64,000 nt of DNA from Caulobacter sp. S45. Lineage in GTDB: Bacteria; Pseudomonadota; Alphaproteobacteria; Caulobacterales; Caulobacteraceae. The translations under genes and the position numbers were made by a program. This document shows positions 51,333 through 59,668 of this stretch, piece by piece (the first letter of the stretch is position 1; each line of letters opens with the position of its first letter). The notes beneath the pieces are model-generated. The model worked only from the letters and a program-made list of their open reading frames with translations, ran no database searches and was not told the origin of the DNA. The stretch lies in contig NZ_LMUL01000014.1 of the NCBI RefSeq assembly GCF_009765965.1, forward strand, positions 2,209,884 through 2,273,883, read 5' to 3'.

Positions 51333-53741
51333 ATGGGGACACCTAAACTGATCTACGTCGCCTTGGCCTTCGTCGCGCCTGGATTGGCGGAGGCGCAGAC
51401 TACGGATGCGCCGGGCGCCACGACCGTGCAGGCGGTGGTGGTCGTCGCCGACAAGGCGGGCCTGCTCTCCCGCAAGGCCGGCAATGTGGTGCTGGGGATC
51501 GACAAGCCGCTGAGCGAAACGCCCCGCTCCGCCACCACCATCAGCGACACCACCCTGCAGCGCTACGGCGCCCAGACGGTGAACGACCTGGTGGCGCTGT
51601 CGCCGGGCGCCTTCACCGCCAGCTATTACGGCGTGGCGGGCGCGCTGAACCTGCGCGGCACGCTGGCGGAGACCTATTTCCGCGGCTTCAAGCTGATCGA
51701 GGACCGGGGCACCTACACCACGCCGATCGGCGATGCGGCTCAGATCGATATCGTGCGCGGGCCGCCCAGCCCCATCTATGGCGCCGGCAAGGTGGGCGGC
51801 TTCCTGAACATCACGCCCAAGACCGCCGCCGATCAGGCGGGTTCGCTGGACCAGCCCACCGGCGAGGTGTCCGCCACGCTGGGCAGCTACCAGCTCAAGG
51901 ACTTCACCGCCCAGGTCGCAGCCCCGCTGAAGCTCGGGACTCTCGACGGCGGGGTCTACGGCTACGGCGACTATTACGACGCCCACAGCTACTATCGCGG
52001 CATCTATCCCAGCCACCAGAACGTCGAGCTGGCGGCCAACCTGAACCTGCCGGACGGCTGGCGGTTCGAGGTTGGCGGGATGTATCTGCACGAGGAAGGC
52101 AATATCCAGACGCCGGGCTGGAACCGCCTGACCCAGGACCTGATCGACAACGGGACCTACATCACCGGCCACAACACCACCCTGGTGGACTCCAACCACG
52201 ACGGCCGTCTGGAGCCGGGCGAGGTCGGGCCGGGACCCGCCAGCTCCTATCCGTTCGGGACGTCGATCCTGCAGTTCGTCGGCGGGGCCGCAAAGCCCAC
52301 GGCCGATCCGCGCTTCGTGCTCGACACCGGCTTGGGGACGACCCAGCTCAGCCCGCGCGACGTGTTCGTCAGCTCAGCCGACTTCTCCCACACCGACACC
52401 CATGTCTACTACGCCGACCTGGACAAGACCTTCTCCAAGGACAGCGACCTGAAATTCCAGTTGTTCTACAACGACTTGGATAACAAGCGCTTCGTCAGCT
52501 ACGGCTTTCCGGCCTGGTATCGGACCTATGTCGCCGAGGCGCGCGTCCCCTACCATTTCAAGCTGTCCACGGCGGACGGCGGCCTGAGCGCCGACACGGT
52601 GCTGGGGGTCGACTACCGCTACACCCAGGCCCACCGGATGGAGAGCTTCGACTCCGGCCTGATCGCGGTGGACCGGCGCGACCTGTCGGTCGGCGCCACG
52701 CCGACGGACATCTTCGACAGCCCGTTCGACAATTCGCCGGGCGGGATCGGCTGGGAAATCGACAACCGCACGCGCGAGCGCGACGCGGGCGGCTTCGTCA
52801 CCACCGACATCGCCGTGGCGCACCGGCTCGACCTGATCCTGGGCGGCCGCTACGACTTCTTCAACGTAGAGGGCCGCGACACCGGCATCTTCTCGTTCGA
52901 GCCCGCCGGCACGCTGCGCGCCGGCCAGGGCAAGGGCACCTGGTCGGCCAGCGTGACCTACAAGCTGCCGCTGGGGCTGATCCCATACGTCACCTATTCC
53001 GAAGACGCGGCGTTGGAGGTCAACCAGGCCAGCGACATCCCGACCTCGGCTATCGCCAGCGGCGGCTGGCTGTCCAAGTCCGACCTGCGCGAGGCGGGCG
53101 TCAAGTTCAGCGAACTCAAGGGCGCCCTGGTCGGATCGGTCGACGTCTACCGCCAGACCCGCTCCCAGTTCGCCGGCCTGAATTCCGCGGTGCAGGGCAC
53201 GGTCGGCAAGGGGGTGGAGTCCGAGGTCCGCTGGTTGGCCACCTCCAACCTCAGCTTCACCTTCGCCGGCGACATCCAGCATACCGAGGTCAAAGGACCG
53301 GACGGCAGCCAAGTGCTGATCCCGCCCTCGGCGGTCGGCGTGCCGGACATCGACGGGTTCGGCGGGTCGTACTTCGCCACCATCTCGAGCCTGCCGGGGC
53401 GCGCGGGGAACTACGCCTACACCCTGATCCCGCACGGCACCTTCAGCCTGTACGCCAACTACATCACCGACCCGGCGGAGTGGGGACGCGCGGGCGCCAC
53501 CATCGGCGCGACCCACCAATCGCAGACCTCGGGCGTCATCGAGGGGGCGGTGGTCTATCCGGCCTACTTCGTGGCCAACGGGTCGATGTTCTACCGCAAG
53601 GGACCCTGGGAGACGGACCTGAACGTCGACAACCTGTTCGACAAGACCTACTTCACCCCCGACGCCGATATCCTCTCGGAAGTGGCCGCGCTCCCTTCGG
53701 TGGGACGGACATGGCGGCTGACGGTGAAGCGGAGCTTCTAA
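51333..53741 (+). CDS. TonB-dependent receptor
   Basis: An 802-residue outer-membrane receptor. The signal peptide is MGTPKLIYVALAFVAPGLAEAQ. A TonB-box-like segment VQAVVVVADKAG follows, and the plug contains ETPRSATTISDTTLQRYGAQTVNDLVALSPGAF, then VRGPPSPIYGAGKVGGFLNITPKT near 150. The barrel ends RTWRLTVKRSF with the C-terminal Phe. I chose the ATG at 51333 because the signal peptide starts there. The divergent FCD-type GntR gene suggests a role in uptake of an organic ligand instead of, or besides, iron chelates. The stop overlaps that of the convergent gene at 53738. Confidence 0.92.
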   Translation: MGTPKLIYVALAFVAPGLAEAQTTDAPGATTVQAVVVVADKAGLLSRKAGNVVLGIDKPLSETPRSATTISDTTLQRYGAQTVNDLVALSPGAFTASYYGVAGALNLRGTLAETYFRGFKLIEDRGTYTTPIGDAAQIDIVRGPPSPIYGAGKVGGFLNITPKTAADQAGSLDQPTGEVSATLGSYQLKDFTAQVAAPLKLGTLDGGVYGYGDYYDAHSYYRGIYPSHQNVELAANLNLPDGWRFEVGGMYLHEEGNIQTPGWNRLTQDLIDNGTYITGHNTTLVDSNHDGRLEPGEVGPGPASSYPFGTSILQFVGGAAKPTADPRFVLDTGLGTTQLSPRDVFVSSADFSHTDTHVYYADLDKTFSKDSDLKFQLFYNDLDNKRFVSYGFPAWYRTYVAEARVPYHFKLSTADGGLSADTVLGVDYRYTQAHRMESFDSGLIAVDRRDLSVGATPTDIFDSPFDNSPGGIGWEIDNRTRERDAGGFVTTDIAVAHRLDLILGGRYDFFNVEGRDTGIFSFEPAGTLRAGQGKGTWSASVTYKLPLGLIPYVTYSEDAALEVNQASDIPTSAIASGGWLSKSDLREAGVKFSELKGALVGSVDVYRQTRSQFAGLNSAVQGTVGKGVESEVRWLATSNLSFTFAGDIQHTEVKGPDGSQVLIPPSAVGVPDIDGFGGSYFATISSLPGRAGNYAYTLIPHGTFSLYANYITDPAEWGRAGATIGATHQSQTSGVIEGAVVYPAYFVANGSMFYRKGPWETDLNVDNLFDKTYFTPDADILSEVAALPSVGRTWRLTVKRSF

Positions 53742-54082
53742 ACCTCCAGGCCAGGTAGCGCCGACTGCAGATCCACGAACCAGCCTCGCGCCTTGTCCAG
53801 CTCGGCCCAGGGGACCGCGCCTAGGGGGAAGTGGCCGGCGATCACCATGGCGATGACGGCGCTGAGCTTGGACAGCCGGTCGCGGTCGCCCTGCGCCGGG
53901 TGTTCGCGTTGCGCCTGGATCAGCGCCTCGCGGTAGGCGCTCAGGGCTTTGGTGGCGGCGGTGAAGGCGTTGCCGTCGTTGTGCGGCCGCCCAGCCAGGG
54001 CCGCGTCCATCCGCGCCAGGGCGTCGGCATGCAGACCGGCCAGCGCATCGGCGGCCGATACATGGGTGTCCGCCGCGCTCAT
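53738..54082 (-). CDS. Uncharacterised protein coupled to formate dehydrogenase
   Basis: A 114-residue, mostly helical, soluble protein (MSAADTHVSAADALAGLHADALARMDAAL at the start, AVIAMVIAGHFPLGAVPWAELDKARGWFVDLQ near the end). Its ATG overlaps the stop of the formate dehydrogenase alpha gene as ATGA, so it is translated with it and probably acts with it. No family recognised, no cysteines; a cofactor chaperone or assembly factor is possible but unproven. Its stop codon overlaps, on the other strand, the stop of the TonB receptor. Confidence 0.75.
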   Translation of the reverse strand: MSAADTHVSAADALAGLHADALARMDAALAGRPHNDGNAFTAATKALSAYREALIQAQREHPAQGDRDRLSKLSAVIAMVIAGHFPLGAVPWAELDKARGWFVDLQSALPGLEV

Positions 54083-57000
54083 GTCTCGGTCACCAGACGC
54101 AGGGCTTCCGGCAGGCGGCCCGCGCGGATGTTGCAGGTGAGCGCCTTGGTGACGTTGATGCCGGTGTTGGCGTCGCCAGTGATGGCGAGGAGCGTGTTGG
54201 CCGCCGCGCCGTGGGCGTAGCCCTTCCAGCCGAACACCCAGGGCATGCCGATCAGGTGCACCTGCTTGCGGCCGATCTTGAACGGTCGCAGGCGTTCGGT
54301 GACCAAGGCCTTCACCTCGATCTCGCCGCGCAGGGTGGACAGCACCGTCCAGTCCAGGGTCCTGATCCCGATCTCTTCGGCCAGCTCGGGCGAAATCTCC
54401 ACGAACGCTTCCGGCTGCAGCTCGGCGGTATGGGGCATGATCCGGGTGCTGATGCCGGCGCAGTGCATCTCGGTCAGCCGGTAGGTGGTGAACACGTGCG
54501 GGAAGCGAGGGTCCTGCGGCGCGTGCAGCTCGTTGCCCTCATGGCGCCAGATGCGGGCGGTGGGGTTGAACTGGCGGCCGTAGAACAGGTTCTTCACCGG
54601 GCTTTCCACCGGCTCGTAATAGGTCGGCAGGGGGCCGTCCTTCAGGCCCGACGTCGCGAAGATGGCGCAGCGCCCGTCCGCGGTCATGATGAAGGGGTCC
54701 GAGCCGGATAGCGCGTCCATCCCCCGTGCGCCCTTGGACCAGTCGGGCTGGTAGTCGGGCCGCTTGTTGGCGACGAAGTCGGGCACGTCCAGGCCGGTCC
54801 ACTTCCCGCCTTCCTCGTCCCACCAGATCATCTTCTTGCGTTCCGACCAGGGCTTGCCCTCGGGATCGGCGGAAGCGCGATTGTACAGGGTGCGTCGGTT
54901 GGCGGGCCAGGCGAAGGCCCACTCATGATGACCCGATGTTGCGTCGGGCGCGTCGGGAATGCGCGAGCGGGTGGCGTTGTGGGTCTCGGTCGGGAAGGCC
55001 CCGGCATAGATCCAGCAGCCCGAGGCGGTGGAGCCGTCGTCCTTCAGGTCGGCGAACTTCGCGATCTGCTTGCGATCGGCAGTGGTGTAGCCGTTGATTT
55101 CCTTCAGCACCGCCTCGGCGCTGGGCTCCATGCGGTCGCCCTGCAGCGGATAGTCCCAGGTCAGGTCCTTCAGCGCCTGGTCGGCCGGCTCCTGGCTGTC
55201 GGCGTACATGGCCTTCAGTCGCCGGCCCAGGTGGTAGATGAACCAGAGATCGGAGCGGCTGTCGCCCGGCGCATCGCAGACATGGTCGTGCCACTGCACC
55301 AGGCGCGTGGTGTTGGTGAAGGTGCCTTCCTTCTCGCCCGGCATGGCGGCGGGCAGGAAGAACACCTCGGTGCCGATCTGGTCGGGGCGGATCGTCCCCC
55401 GCTGCACCCGCTGGCCGTTGTTCCAGAAGTCGGCGGTCTCGGTCATGGCGAAGTCGCGCACGACCAGCCATTCCAGCTTGGATAGGCCCTCCTCGACGAA
55501 CAGGGAGTTGCCGGCCCCCACCGCGGGGTTCTGGCCCATGATGAAGTGGCCTTTGATCGCTTCGTCGACCATGTTCAGGATCGAAGGCTCGTAGGAGGCG
55601 TCCCCGATCAGCTTGGGCAGGTGCTGGTAGCCATACTCGTTCTCCGCCGTGGCGGCGTCGCCGTACCAGGCCTTGAGCAGGCTGATCACGTACTTGGGCG
55701 TATTGGCCCACCAGCCGGTCGTCGGGGTCTCGGACCTTAGATAGCCCTCCAGGGTGGCGTGGTCCCGGAACAGCTTGGGCTGGGGCAGATAGCCCGGCAG
55801 GGTGTCGAACAAGGTCGGGATGTCGGTGGAGCCCTGGATGCTGGCATGGCCCCGCAGCGCCATGATCCCGCCGCCCGGCCGCCCCATGTTCCCGAGCAGG
55901 CCCTGCAGCAGGGCGGCCGCCCGGATCACCTGCACCCCGTGGGTGTGCTGGGTCCAGCCCAGAGCATAGCAGATGGTGGTCGTACGCTCGCGGCCCGAGT
56001 TGCGGGTCACCGTCTCCGCCACCCTCAGGAAGGTCTCCTTGGGGCAGCCGGTGGCCGCCTCGACCATCTCGGGGGTGTAGCGCGCATAGTGGCGCTTCAG
56101 GATCTGGTAGACGCAGTTGGGGTGTTGGAGCGTGGGATCGCGCTCGGCCGGCCCCTGGGTCATGGACTCGAAATCGCGTCCAAGCTCGGGCGGATCGGTG
56201 GCGATCTGGTGGTCCGGCAGCGGGGGCGGGACCATCTTGCCCTTATATTGCCAGGTGTCCTGCCGATAGATGCCGTTGTCCGGGTCGTAGCCCGAGAACA
56301 CCCCGTCCAGCTCCTCGGTGTCCTGGAAGCCGTCTTCGATGATGTTGGAGATGTTGGTGTAGTTCATCGCGTATTCGCGGAACCACAGATCGTTCTCGAT
56401 CACATAACGGATCAGGCCGCCGAGGAAGGCGATGTCGGAGCCCGAGCGAACCGGCGCATGGATGCCCGAAAGCGCCGAGGTGCGGGTGAACCGCGGGTCG
56501 GCGTGGATGACGGTCGCGCCCTTACGCTGGGCCTCGATCACGAAGCGGAACGCGATCGGATGGTTCTCCGCCATGTTGGAGCCCATGACGAACACGCAAT
56601 CGGCGTTCGCCACGTCCCAGAGGGCCATCGTCGCCGCGCCGCGGCCGAAGGTGGCGCCCAGACTGGGCACCGATGAGGAGTGTCATATTCGAGCTTGGTT
56701 CTCGATATTGACCATGCCCAGGCCGCCGCTGAACAACTTCTTGATGAGGTAGTTTTCCTCGTTGTCCATGGTCGCGCCGCCCAGGTGGCTGATCGCGGTG
56801 GTCTGGTTCACCACCCGCCCGTCGGGCAGGGCGTGGACGTGGGTTTCGTCGCGCGCCTTCTTGGTCAGCTCGGCGATGCGGTCCATCGCCCATTCCAGGG
56901 GCTTGACCTCCCAGGTGTCGGAATTCGGGGCGCGATATAGGGTCTGGTTCACCCGCTTGGGGCTCAGCAGCATGCCGAGCGTGGCGCCGCCCTTGGGGCA

Positions 57001-57276
57001 GAGGCAGCCGCGGTTCACCGGGCTGCGGGGATCGCCCTCGATATGGATGGGCTTGCGGTTCTTGGCGTAGACGAGCTGGGCGCAGCCGACCGCGCAGAAG
57101 GGGCAGATGCTGGTGCCTATCGTGTCCGCCTCCTCCAGCCGGGGGCGGAGGTCGTTGGACAGGGAACTCTTGGATGCGGTCGAGAACATGTCCTCGCCCG
57201 CCAGTTGGCGCGGAACGGCCCAATCGCGGAGGAACCGCTCGGCGCGGCTCACAATGGTCTTACGCAGTCTCTTCAC
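54079..57276 (-). CDS. Selenocysteine-containing formate dehydrogenase, alpha (catalytic) subunit
   Basis: One gene of 1,066 codons, read through an in-frame TGA at 56685-56683 that should encode selenocysteine at residue 198. Before it: the [4Fe-4S] motif CPFCAVGCAQLVYAKN with later Cys in GCLCPKGG (residues 58-94), and the lead-in NIENQARI. After it: HSSSVPSLGATFGRG, as in E. coli FdnG, where Sec is at residue 196. Further on, YALGWTQHTHGVQVIRAAALLQGLLGNMGRPGGGI and the C-terminal molybdopterin-binding domain match the FdnG/FdoG family. A SECIS-like hairpin follows the TGA. No twin-arginine signal is visible at the N-terminus (MKRLRKTIVSRAERFLRDW), unlike FdnG. Start is GTG with GAGGG upstream. 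Confidence 0.9.
56653..56685 (-). promoter_or_regulatory. UGA codon plus SECIS-like hairpin
   Basis: On the coding strand the TGA (56685-56683) is followed by 11 bases and then the hairpin GGTGCCC-AGTCT-GGGCGCC (56671-56653): a 7-pair stem with one G-U pair and a 5-base loop AGUCU. Bacterial SelB recognises just such a short upper stem about 11 bases after the UGA; E. coli fdhF has a GGUCU-type loop at the same distance, from memory. This distinguishes recoding from an ordinary stop. Confidence 0.82.
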
Positions 57277-57448: not shown

Positions 57449-57700
57449 ATGTCTAAAGCCGCCGCCGGCCCTATGGCCGAGATGGAAGGCGTCGTCACCG
57501 TGGTGCAGGAAGGTCGTTTTCAGCTCACCGACCTTGGCGGGGTTTCGCACAATTTCATGCTGAGCCGTTTCGCCCTGGCGGAGACCGAGCAGCTACCGGC
57601 GCTCCAGAACGCCCAGTCGCGGGTGCGCGTTAAGTATTCCCAGGCCGACAAGCTGATCGCCTATCTCGCCCACCGTATCGACCTGCTGGACGTCGCCTGA
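57449..57700 (+). CDS. Small uncharacterised protein of the formate dehydrogenase operon
   Basis: An 83-residue protein: EMEGVVTVVQEGRFQLTDLGGVSHNFMLSRFALAETEQLP then VRVKYSQADKLIAYLAHRIDLLDV. The first half reads as a small beta barrel, resembling OB-fold-like or ribosome-site-adjacent accessory domains, without a recognised family. It has no signal peptide, membrane span or cysteine. It starts the rightward unit and lies 11 bases before the iron-sulfur subunit gene, so it is likely involved in the enzyme's function, assembly or regulation. GGGAGG precedes the ATG at suitable distance. Confidence 0.75.
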   Translation: MSKAAAGPMAEMEGVVTVVQEGRFQLTDLGGVSHNFMLSRFALAETEQLPALQNAQSRVRVKYSQADKLIAYLAHRIDLLDVA

Positions 57701-57711
57701 GGAGGCCGGCT

Positions 57712-58656
57712 GTGGAAATCCATCCTTTCGCCCGCGCCCGTGAGTATCCGGACTCGGTGTTTCACGACGTCATCCCCAACGAATCCGAGTTAACCGGCGG
57801 GGTGACGATCGAGCCCGGCAAGCAGTACGGCTTCTTCACCGACACCACCGTCTGCATCGGCTGCAAGTCCTGCGAAGTGGCCTGCAAGGAGTGGAACAAC
57901 CTGCCTGCCGACGACATCGGGCTGACGGGGCAGAGCTACGACAACACCGGCGCGCTTTCCGCCAACACCTGGCGGCATGTGAACTTCATCGAGAAGAAGC
58001 AGGCGCTGGCGGACGACACCGCCGAGCGGCCCGCGCGCGGGGTGCGCGATAACGACCAGAACGCCTTCCAGAGCGGCTGGTTGATGATGAGCGACGTGTG
58101 CAAGCACTGCCATCACGCGCCCTGCATGGAGTCGTGCCCCACCGGCGCGCTGTTCAAGACCGAGTTCGACACCGTGGTGGTGCAGCAGGACATCTGCAAC
58201 GGCTGCGGCTACTGCGTCTCAGCCTGTCCGTTCGGGGTGGTGGCCCTCAACCCGCTCGACGGCAAGGCCCACAAGTGCACCCTCTGCTACGACCGGCTCA
58301 AGGGCGGGTTGGAGCCGGCCTGCGCCAAGGCCTGCCCCACCGAGAGCATCCAGTTCGGCGAACTGTCCGACCTCTGGGAACGCGCCGCGACCCGGGTGGA
58401 GGACCTTCATGCGCGCGGCGTGACCAGCGCCTACACCTACGGCACGCCCGATGCGCCCGGCGCCACCGGCGACATGAAGTATCTCAACTCCTTCTTCCTG
58501 CTCACCGACCGGCCGGAAGCCTACAACCTGCCCGCCGCCCCCACCCGCCCGTCCAACCGGGTGGCGCCGGCCTTCGCCGCCGGCCTGAGCACGATCGCCG
58601 GGCTGGCCCTGGCGGCGGCGGTGTTGTTCGCCGGCGCAAAGACCACGAGAGACTAG
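57712..58656 (+). CDS. Formate dehydrogenase iron-sulfur (beta) subunit
   Basis: A 314-residue electron-transfer subunit with four [4Fe-4S] motifs: VCIGCKSCEVACKEWN near 44, VCKHCHHAPCMESCPTGA near 128, ICNGCGYCVSACPFGV near 162 and KCTLCYDRLKGGLEPACAKACPTES near 188, the FdnH/FdoH arrangement. The last 30 residues (FAAGLSTIAGLALAAAVLFAGA) form one membrane helix, as in FdoH. It passes electrons from the selenoprotein alpha subunit to the membrane partner. Start is GTG with GAGGAGG upstream. The NrfD-type gene begins 2 bases later, so these two are coupled. Confidence 0.92.
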   Translation: MEIHPFARAREYPDSVFHDVIPNESELTGGVTIEPGKQYGFFTDTTVCIGCKSCEVACKEWNNLPADDIGLTGQSYDNTGALSANTWRHVNFIEKKQALADDTAERPARGVRDNDQNAFQSGWLMMSDVCKHCHHAPCMESCPTGALFKTEFDTVVVQQDICNGCGYCVSACPFGVVALNPLDGKAHKCTLCYDRLKGGLEPACAKACPTESIQFGELSDLWERAATRVEDLHARGVTSAYTYGTPDAPGATGDMKYLNSFFLLTDRPEAYNLPAAPTRPSNRVAPAFAAGLSTIAGLALAAAVLFAGAKTTRD

Positions 58657-58657
58657 G

Positions 58658-59668
58658 ATGCCTGAACATCGCGATGGCCGCGCCGTATCCAAGGGCGCCG
58701 CATCCCCGGAGGCGGCGGCCTGGAAGGGGCCGACCTATTACGGCCGATCCCAGCTCAAGCCCTCGCCGTTCAACGCCTGGGTGGTGGGCGGCTACATCTT
58801 CCTGGCCGGTCTCTCCGGCGCCTCGGCGGTGGTCTCGACCGTGGCCGAGGCGGTTCAGGGCGAGCGGGGCGCGAGCATCGGCCGAAAGGGGCGCTACCTG
58901 TCGATGCTGGCGCCGCTGGTCGGCGCGCCGCTGCTGATCCTCGACCTGCACACGCCGACGCGCTTCTACAACATGTGGCGCATCGTCAAACGCACCTCGC
59001 CCATGTCGCTGGGCACCTGGATCCTCACCGCCTTCATTGGCGGGGCCGGGGTGGCGGTGGTCGCCCAGCTCGGCGTCGACCTGCTGGGGCTGAAATGGCT
59101 GAAGCGGATCGCGCGGCTGGGCTCGGCGCCGGCCGCGATCACCGGGGCGGGCATCTCGACCTACACCGCCGCCCTGCTGGCGGCCACCAGCGCGCCTTAC
59201 TGGGCCGCCGACGAAAAGGGTTTGGGCGTGCGGTTCGCCTCGTCCTCGATCGCCGCGGGCTCGGCCGCCCTGGCGCTGGGGGAAAAGTCCCGTTCCACCC
59301 GCCGCACCCTCAACGCCATCACCGGCATCGCCCTGCTCACCGAGCTGGTCGCCACCGCCGTCCACCACAAGAACGTCAAGGCCAAGGGCGTCGGCGCCTC
59401 GCTGGAGAGCGAGTGGGCGCATATCGAGGAGGCGGCCGTGCTGGGCCTGGGCGTCCTGCTGCCGCTGGGCCTGTACGTCGCCTCCCGGCGGCTGGGCGAC
59501 CGCAAGCGCGCTGGGGCGGTTTCGGACCTCGCCTCGCTCGCGGTGATGGCCGGAAGCGCCATGCTGCGGGTGTCCACCATCCGCATCGGCCAGGATTCCG
59601 CCAGCCGGCCGGAGGTGAGCCTGCGCTTCAGCCAGCCTGAAAACCTGCCCAAAAAGCGGAGGGCCTAG
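58658..59668 (+). CDS. NrfD-type membrane subunit
   Basis: A 336-residue polytopic protein with about eight membrane segments. NAWVVGGYIFLAGLSGASAVVSTVAE near residue 40, then APLLILDLHTPTRFYNMWRIVKRTSPMSLGTW near 92, are the NrfD/PsrC signature, with the conserved LxLxRPxRF(Y)-type loop. NrfD proteins take electrons from an iron-sulfur subunit to reduce quinone without heme. Its use in place of the cytochrome b gamma subunit of E. coli FDH-N/O is notable. Coupled to the beta-subunit gene. The C-terminal tail (GQDSASRPEVSLRFSQP) is cytoplasmic by charge. Confidence 0.88.
   Translation: MPEHRDGRAVSKGAASPEAAAWKGPTYYGRSQLKPSPFNAWVVGGYIFLAGLSGASAVVSTVAEAVQGERGASIGRKGRYLSMLAPLVGAPLLILDLHTPTRFYNMWRIVKRTSPMSLGTWILTAFIGGAGVAVVAQLGVDLLGLKWLKRIARLGSAPAAITGAGISTYTAALLAATSAPYWAADEKGLGVRFASSSIAAGSAALALGEKSRSTRRTLNAITGIALLTELVATAVHHKNVKAKGVGASLESEWAHIEEAAVLGLGVLLPLGLYVASRRLGDRKRAGAVSDLASLAVMAGSAMLRVSTIRIGQDSASRPEVSLRFSQPENLPKKRRA

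Follow-up and report, generated by a model that had tools for sequence, protein, structure and literature searches.

The UGA codon within the formate dehydrogenase gene of the window, which is the whole stretch of 64 kb analyzed here (C9:2209884-2273883 of an assembly of 4.89 Mb in 19 contigs, 99% complete), almost certainly encodes selenocysteine (Sec), a confidence that refers to the codon, and does not extend to the side of the membrane on which the enzyme lies. The product of the locus is best explained, on the evidence of its sequence, as a membrane-bound, Sec-containing molybdenum or tungsten formate dehydrogenase (FDH).

The gene of the catalytic (alpha) subunit lies on the minus strand (54079..57276), where two open reading frames in the same frame, 57276-56683 (197 aa) and 56670-54079, are joined by a single TGA at 56685-56683, in confirmation of the initial annotation. 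When read through, the gene encodes a protein of 1065 aa with Sec as residue 198, if translation starts at the GTG at 57276, which is the probable start, being preceded by GAGGG and agreeing in position with the ATG starts of the homologs. This protein scores 1472 bits against the NCBIfam model NF041513 (cut-off 1400) and 978 bits against TIGR01553, which is also above the cut-off. In the phmmer alignments, the residue encoded by the TGA (56683..56685) lands on the Sec (written as “X”) of Escherichia coli FdnG (1kqf_A; 718.9 bits) and on that of the FDH of Megadesulfovibrio gigas (1h0h_A; 711.8 bits), as had been proposed for FdnG at the outset. In both cases the homology spans the full length of the protein, on both sides of the TGA, and a conserved histidine follows the Sec directly, the residues around the codon being NIENQAR-I-Sec-HSSSVPSLGATFGR. 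The expectation that the gene would escape automated callers is only partly justified, given that a curated NCBI model, NF041513, covers exactly this family.

The messenger RNA beyond the codon contains a bacterial Sec insertion element (bSECIS), located at 56653..56671 on the minus strand. The RNA 3' of the TGA reads CACUCCUCAUC-GGUGCCC-AGUCU-GGGCGCC, that is, a spacer of 11 bases followed by a stem of seven pairs, one of them U.G, and an AGUCU loop, exactly as first described. Folding with ViennaRNA recovers the same hairpin with one more pair (A22-U26), which leaves a loop of 3 nt, at -14.9 kcal/mol. The hairpin agrees with the generic bSECIS rule (a stem of 4-16 bp, a G as the first or second base of the loop, 16-37 nt from the UGA, and an energy of at most -7.5 kcal/mol; PMC13188914), although this rule is satisfied after 178 of the 1046 codons of the alpha gene, and the fold energy (z of about -1.7) is weak evidence alone in a gene so rich in GC. 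As many codons of such a gene pass, neither the generic rule nor the fold energy was taken as primary evidence. A hairpin in this specific register, by contrast, follows only one of the 1429 TGAs in the window, under a rule derived from the window hairpin itself, and is not a product of chance.

The conservation of the hairpin is seen in an alignment of 35 sequences, in which the seven stem pairs form in 89.5% of the cells, compared with only 36-55% in control hairpins slid along the sequence. Four of the seven pairs change on both sides, with a covariation score that was reached by none of 500 shuffles, a count that does not equate to a probability among rows that are related to one another. 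Positions U17 and U24 show no variation and G23 almost none, and all three are reported to be important in the fdhF gene of E. coli (PMC8659212). The comparison with the E. coli element follows the published fdhF numbering (PMC8659212), because a DNA search for the fdnG of E. coli gave nothing beyond a short match to napA. One small difference is that U17 is bulged in fdhF, whereas it is predicted to pair, as U.G or U-A, in the family of the window enzyme. Rfam, at its gathering thresholds, returned nothing in the window, which speaks neither for nor against the hairpin.

A long gene with an in-frame stop might also be a pseudogene or the result of a sequencing error, with the TGA as a true nonsense codon, and it is here that the homologous loci are decisive. 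A scan of the genomes recovered 42 loci encoding relatives, and those with the NrfD-type membrane subunit described below, from the scan and from the genus and class samples, have a TGA wherever the site is covered and readable, in the context ENQAR-x-(TGA)-HS. The homologs of this type that carry the TGA come from the Alphaproteobacteria, Eremiobacterota, Acidobacteria, Chloroflexi, and Actinobacteria. As every readable locus of this type has the TGA at this residue, the hairpin is conserved, and the genome has a complete set of sel genes, the nonsense-codon reading is hardly credible, and no evidence against the insertion of Sec at the TGA was found in the analysis. As all the covered and readable NrfD-type loci carry the TGA, a sense codon at 56683-56685 masked by a sequencing error, the alternative named in the initial annotation, is excluded in practice. 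In one public record, that of Methylobacterium sp. 2A (L045:6001-9186), the Sec codon is given as TGN, its last base as if masked.

No sel genes were seen within the 64 kb of the window, and their predicted presence elsewhere in the genome was borne out. The genes selD, selA, and selB and the tRNA-Sec form one cluster on the same contig, at 2087-2092 kb, some 118 kb before the window. The scores are 426 bits for selD, which is on the minus strand, 556 bits for selA, 308.9 bits for selB, which is over the cut-off and has winged-helix and beta-barrel domains, the former at the C-terminus, and 77.4 bits for the tRNA-Sec, which ARAGORN identifies as tRNA-SeC with anticodon tca; the three protein genes have no internal stops. 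The search of the genome suggested initially thus recovers all four components, and the absence of selB and tRNA-Sec, which would have spoken against Sec, is not the case. Matches to RF01852 near 51 bits were set aside as candidates for tRNA-Sec, the one in the window genome being a tRNA-Ser according to ARAGORN. The distance between the tRNA-Sec and the FDH alpha gene is approximately 170 kb in this genome, unlike another genome of the same genus, in which the tRNA-Sec (381-469 of G010:C128; loci L083 and L017, which are the same) and the alpha gene of the FDH share a contig and are some 3 kb apart. FdhD, the sulfurtransferase required by FDHs, is encoded at C9:642760-643470, and there is no detectable copy of FdhE in the genome.

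The distribution of the machinery follows that of the codon in the sample of 289 genomes of the Alphaproteobacteria, 41 of which have selA. An FDH of the NrfD or FdoG type is present in 12 of the 289, and 11 of these 12 have selA, together with a TGA where the site was read, while in the twelfth (G403) the codon is TGC, for cysteine, G23 and U24 of the hairpin are missing, and there is no selA and no selB over the cut-off. In the family sample, the NrfD type occurs in four genomes, all of them with selA, although in one (G027) the FDH gene is represented by its C-terminal piece only. A tRNA-Sec above the cut-off of the family is present in 32 of the 37 carrier genomes, including one (G447) in which the score is only at the level of a tRNA-Ser. 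Among the remaining five, four are assemblies in which selB is over the cut-off, and the fifth is G007, a member of the Caulobacteraceae that is 99% complete.

In G007, an FDH gene with a TGA at the Sec site and a hairpin (L063 / L080) lies on a contig of 5297 bp (C26), and no selA, selB over the cut-off, or tRNA-Sec was found in this genome; the short contig may represent contamination or a stranded selenoprotein gene. Elsewhere in this family, 18 of 149 genomes (G083, G026, and G066, for example) have selA but no FDH match at E <= 1e-100, and would therefore have a different selenoprotein, an FDH that is more divergent, or a system that is not in use.

The membrane subunit sets the window enzyme apart from the best-known Sec-containing FDHs. 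On the plus strand, and thus divergent from the alpha gene, are the genes of an iron-sulfur (beta) subunit (57712..58656), with ferredoxin-type [4Fe-4S] domains (Fer4_11, 86.9 bits) and a C-terminal transmembrane helix recognized by its hydropathy, and of an NrfD-type integral membrane subunit (58658..59668; PF03916, 57.7 bits, cut-off 25.8) with a probable quinone site. The beta subunit scores 163.9 bits against the FDH-beta model TIGR01582, which is below the cut-off. The NrfD gene adjoins the FDH genes in most of the homologous loci, and the divergent order is kept in most of the alphaproteobacterial homologs, while the alpha, beta, and NrfD genes are co-directional in the Eremiobacterota, Acidobacteria, Chloroflexi, and Actinobacteria.

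It might still be argued that the locus encodes a classical FDH-N/FDH-O (fdoGHI), in which the catalytic subunit is exported by Tat and the gamma subunit is a cytochrome b, given that the alpha subunit exceeds the cut-off of TIGR01553 at 978 bits and that FdnG is its best solved match. This is very unlikely, however, as a Tat signal is lacking from alpha, the locus encodes an NrfD-type (PF03916) membrane subunit and no cytochrome b gamma subunit, and FdhE was not found. In addition, a maximum-likelihood tree of 50 proteins, built by a quick method and rooted at the midpoint, separates all the Tat-less, NrfD-linked enzymes from the alphaproteobacterial FdoG by a branch with 100% support. The window enzyme is, then, not a close ortholog of FdnG or FdoG, and belongs to a separate NF041513 clade, without a Tat signal and with an NrfD membrane subunit. 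The likeness to FdnG proposed initially holds for the active site, but not for the clade or the architecture.

The N-termini of the two types were compared with the same script. In the FdoG proteins, an RRxF motif is combined with a hydropathy of 1.0-1.75, whereas the maximum over 15 residues ahead of the first cluster is below 0.8 in most of the NrfD-type proteins, with a single value (L019) of 1.08, which overlaps the lowest hydropathy of the true signals. None of the NrfD-type N-termini read has an RRxF with a hydrophobic core, and a few contain RRx[FILV] by chance. For the alpha subunit of the window, the script started at an internal methionine, and the full N-terminus, which has no Tat signal, was judged by eye.

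Two small proteins accompany these subunits, and neither has a match in Pfam or NCBIfam. The first, of 114 aa (53738..54082, minus strand), has an ATG that overlaps the stop of the alpha gene (ATGA), and is conserved, unannotated, after alpha in approximately 20 alphaproteobacterial loci. Its predicted structure (pLDDT 86) is a four-helix bundle, for which a fold search recovered generic four-helix bundles with no specific relative, and it is possibly an assembly factor or a subunit. The second, of 83 aa (57449..57700, plus strand), lies upstream of beta, and is found, also unannotated, beside this gene in approximately 20 alphaproteobacterial loci of NrfD-type FDHs, with 41-73% identity. Its AlphaFold2 model (pLDDT 86) has five strands in a barrel-like fold and one helix, and the fold search returned weak, uninformative matches to SilF (E 5e-4, 11% identity) and to generic OB-like barrels. 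A limited search of the open-licence literature found no paper on the alphaproteobacterial branch of the NrfD type or on its two small companions.

The catalytic subunit of FDH is the most widespread bacterial selenoprotein (PMC13188914, PMC5029168), and clusters of Sec-containing FDH and sel genes have been documented in the Alphaproteobacteria, including the Caulobacterales, as fdoGHI (PMC8124441). The FdnG of E. coli and the alphaproteobacterial FdoG share with the window enzyme the catalytic fold, the Sec-His active site, the C-terminal helix of beta, and the register of the bSECIS, but they form a separate clade, in which alpha carries a Tat signal and the gamma subunit is a cytochrome b. 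The NrfD-linked type has already been described in Rhodococcus equi 103S (WP_162096942.1), where the part of the account consulted reports a Sec-containing alpha subunit of approximately 1080 aa, an FdnH-like beta subunit with one transmembrane helix, an NrfD-type third subunit, and no signal detected by SignalP, as in the window (PMC13332983). This species belongs to the Actinobacteria, however, and its tRNA-Sec and sel genes are adjacent to fdh in the same cluster, rather than in a separate one, while the divergent gene order and the two small proteins are not mentioned in that part of the account (PMC13332983). In Actinomycetospora chiangmaiensis, the membrane-bound, Sec-containing FDH1 has an FdhA1 of 1078 aa, and the removal of formate by the cultures depends on selenite (PMC7176365); this strain, of another phylum, has three Sec-FDHs (PMC7176365), and its FDH1 is likened here to the window enzyme by its published description. 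The window enzyme is, in other words, an ordinary example of an enzyme type already described, from a less-studied branch without an export signal.

In the mechanism proposed here, SelB would bind the hairpin just beyond the UGA and deliver Sec-tRNA-Sec, the hairpin and the SelB gene both being present, with the sel gene products supplied from the single cluster located elsewhere in the genome. By homology, Sec 198 would be a ligand of the bis-MGD metal, Mo or W, and formate would be oxidized to CO2 at the catalytic subunit. The families of the subunits suggest that the electrons would then pass from the [4Fe-4S] cluster of alpha to the clusters of beta, the NrfD-type subunit, and, finally, quinone.

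The missing Tat signal and the missing FdhE suggest an alpha subunit that faces the cytoplasm, unlike FdnG and FdoG, and this is the probable arrangement, although the absence of FdhE can have other causes, and the chance RRx[FILV] motifs and the overlapping hydropathy of L019 weigh somewhat on the other side. The same NrfD-anchored selenoenzyme could instead reach the periplasm, either through a degenerate Tat signal or carried along by another subunit. The authors of the R. equi study argue that a degenerate motif directs export by Tat (PMC13332983), and, in the alphaproteobacterial members, the first cluster is preceded by a conserved block, FLxDWSxPRQLAG, at the N-terminus. Export is unlikely, nevertheless, as the hydrophobic core of the true Tat FDHs is lacking, the N-termini in the Eremiobacterota (MAKTTIDIT...) are unrelated and have no Tat feature, and the beta subunit starts without a signal.

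If the cytoplasmic arrangement applies generally, the whole clade of these Sec-FDHs, in bacteria associated with soil, lichens, and plants, might operate at the cytoplasmic face of the membrane and supply quinone through NrfD, which might also move ions, while the two small proteins specific to the Alphaproteobacteria would be dedicated subunits or assembly factors, a proposal with slightly less than an even chance of being correct. The annotation of the alpha gene is corrected to that of an intact selenoprotein, rather than two genes or a pseudogene, and the locus provides a clean case, within the Alphaproteobacteria, in which selA accompanies the Sec codon. Members of the branch to which it belongs, without an export signal and anchored by NrfD, occur in at least five phyla, and it is disputed on which side of the membrane they lie and, therefore, how they contribute to the proton motive force.
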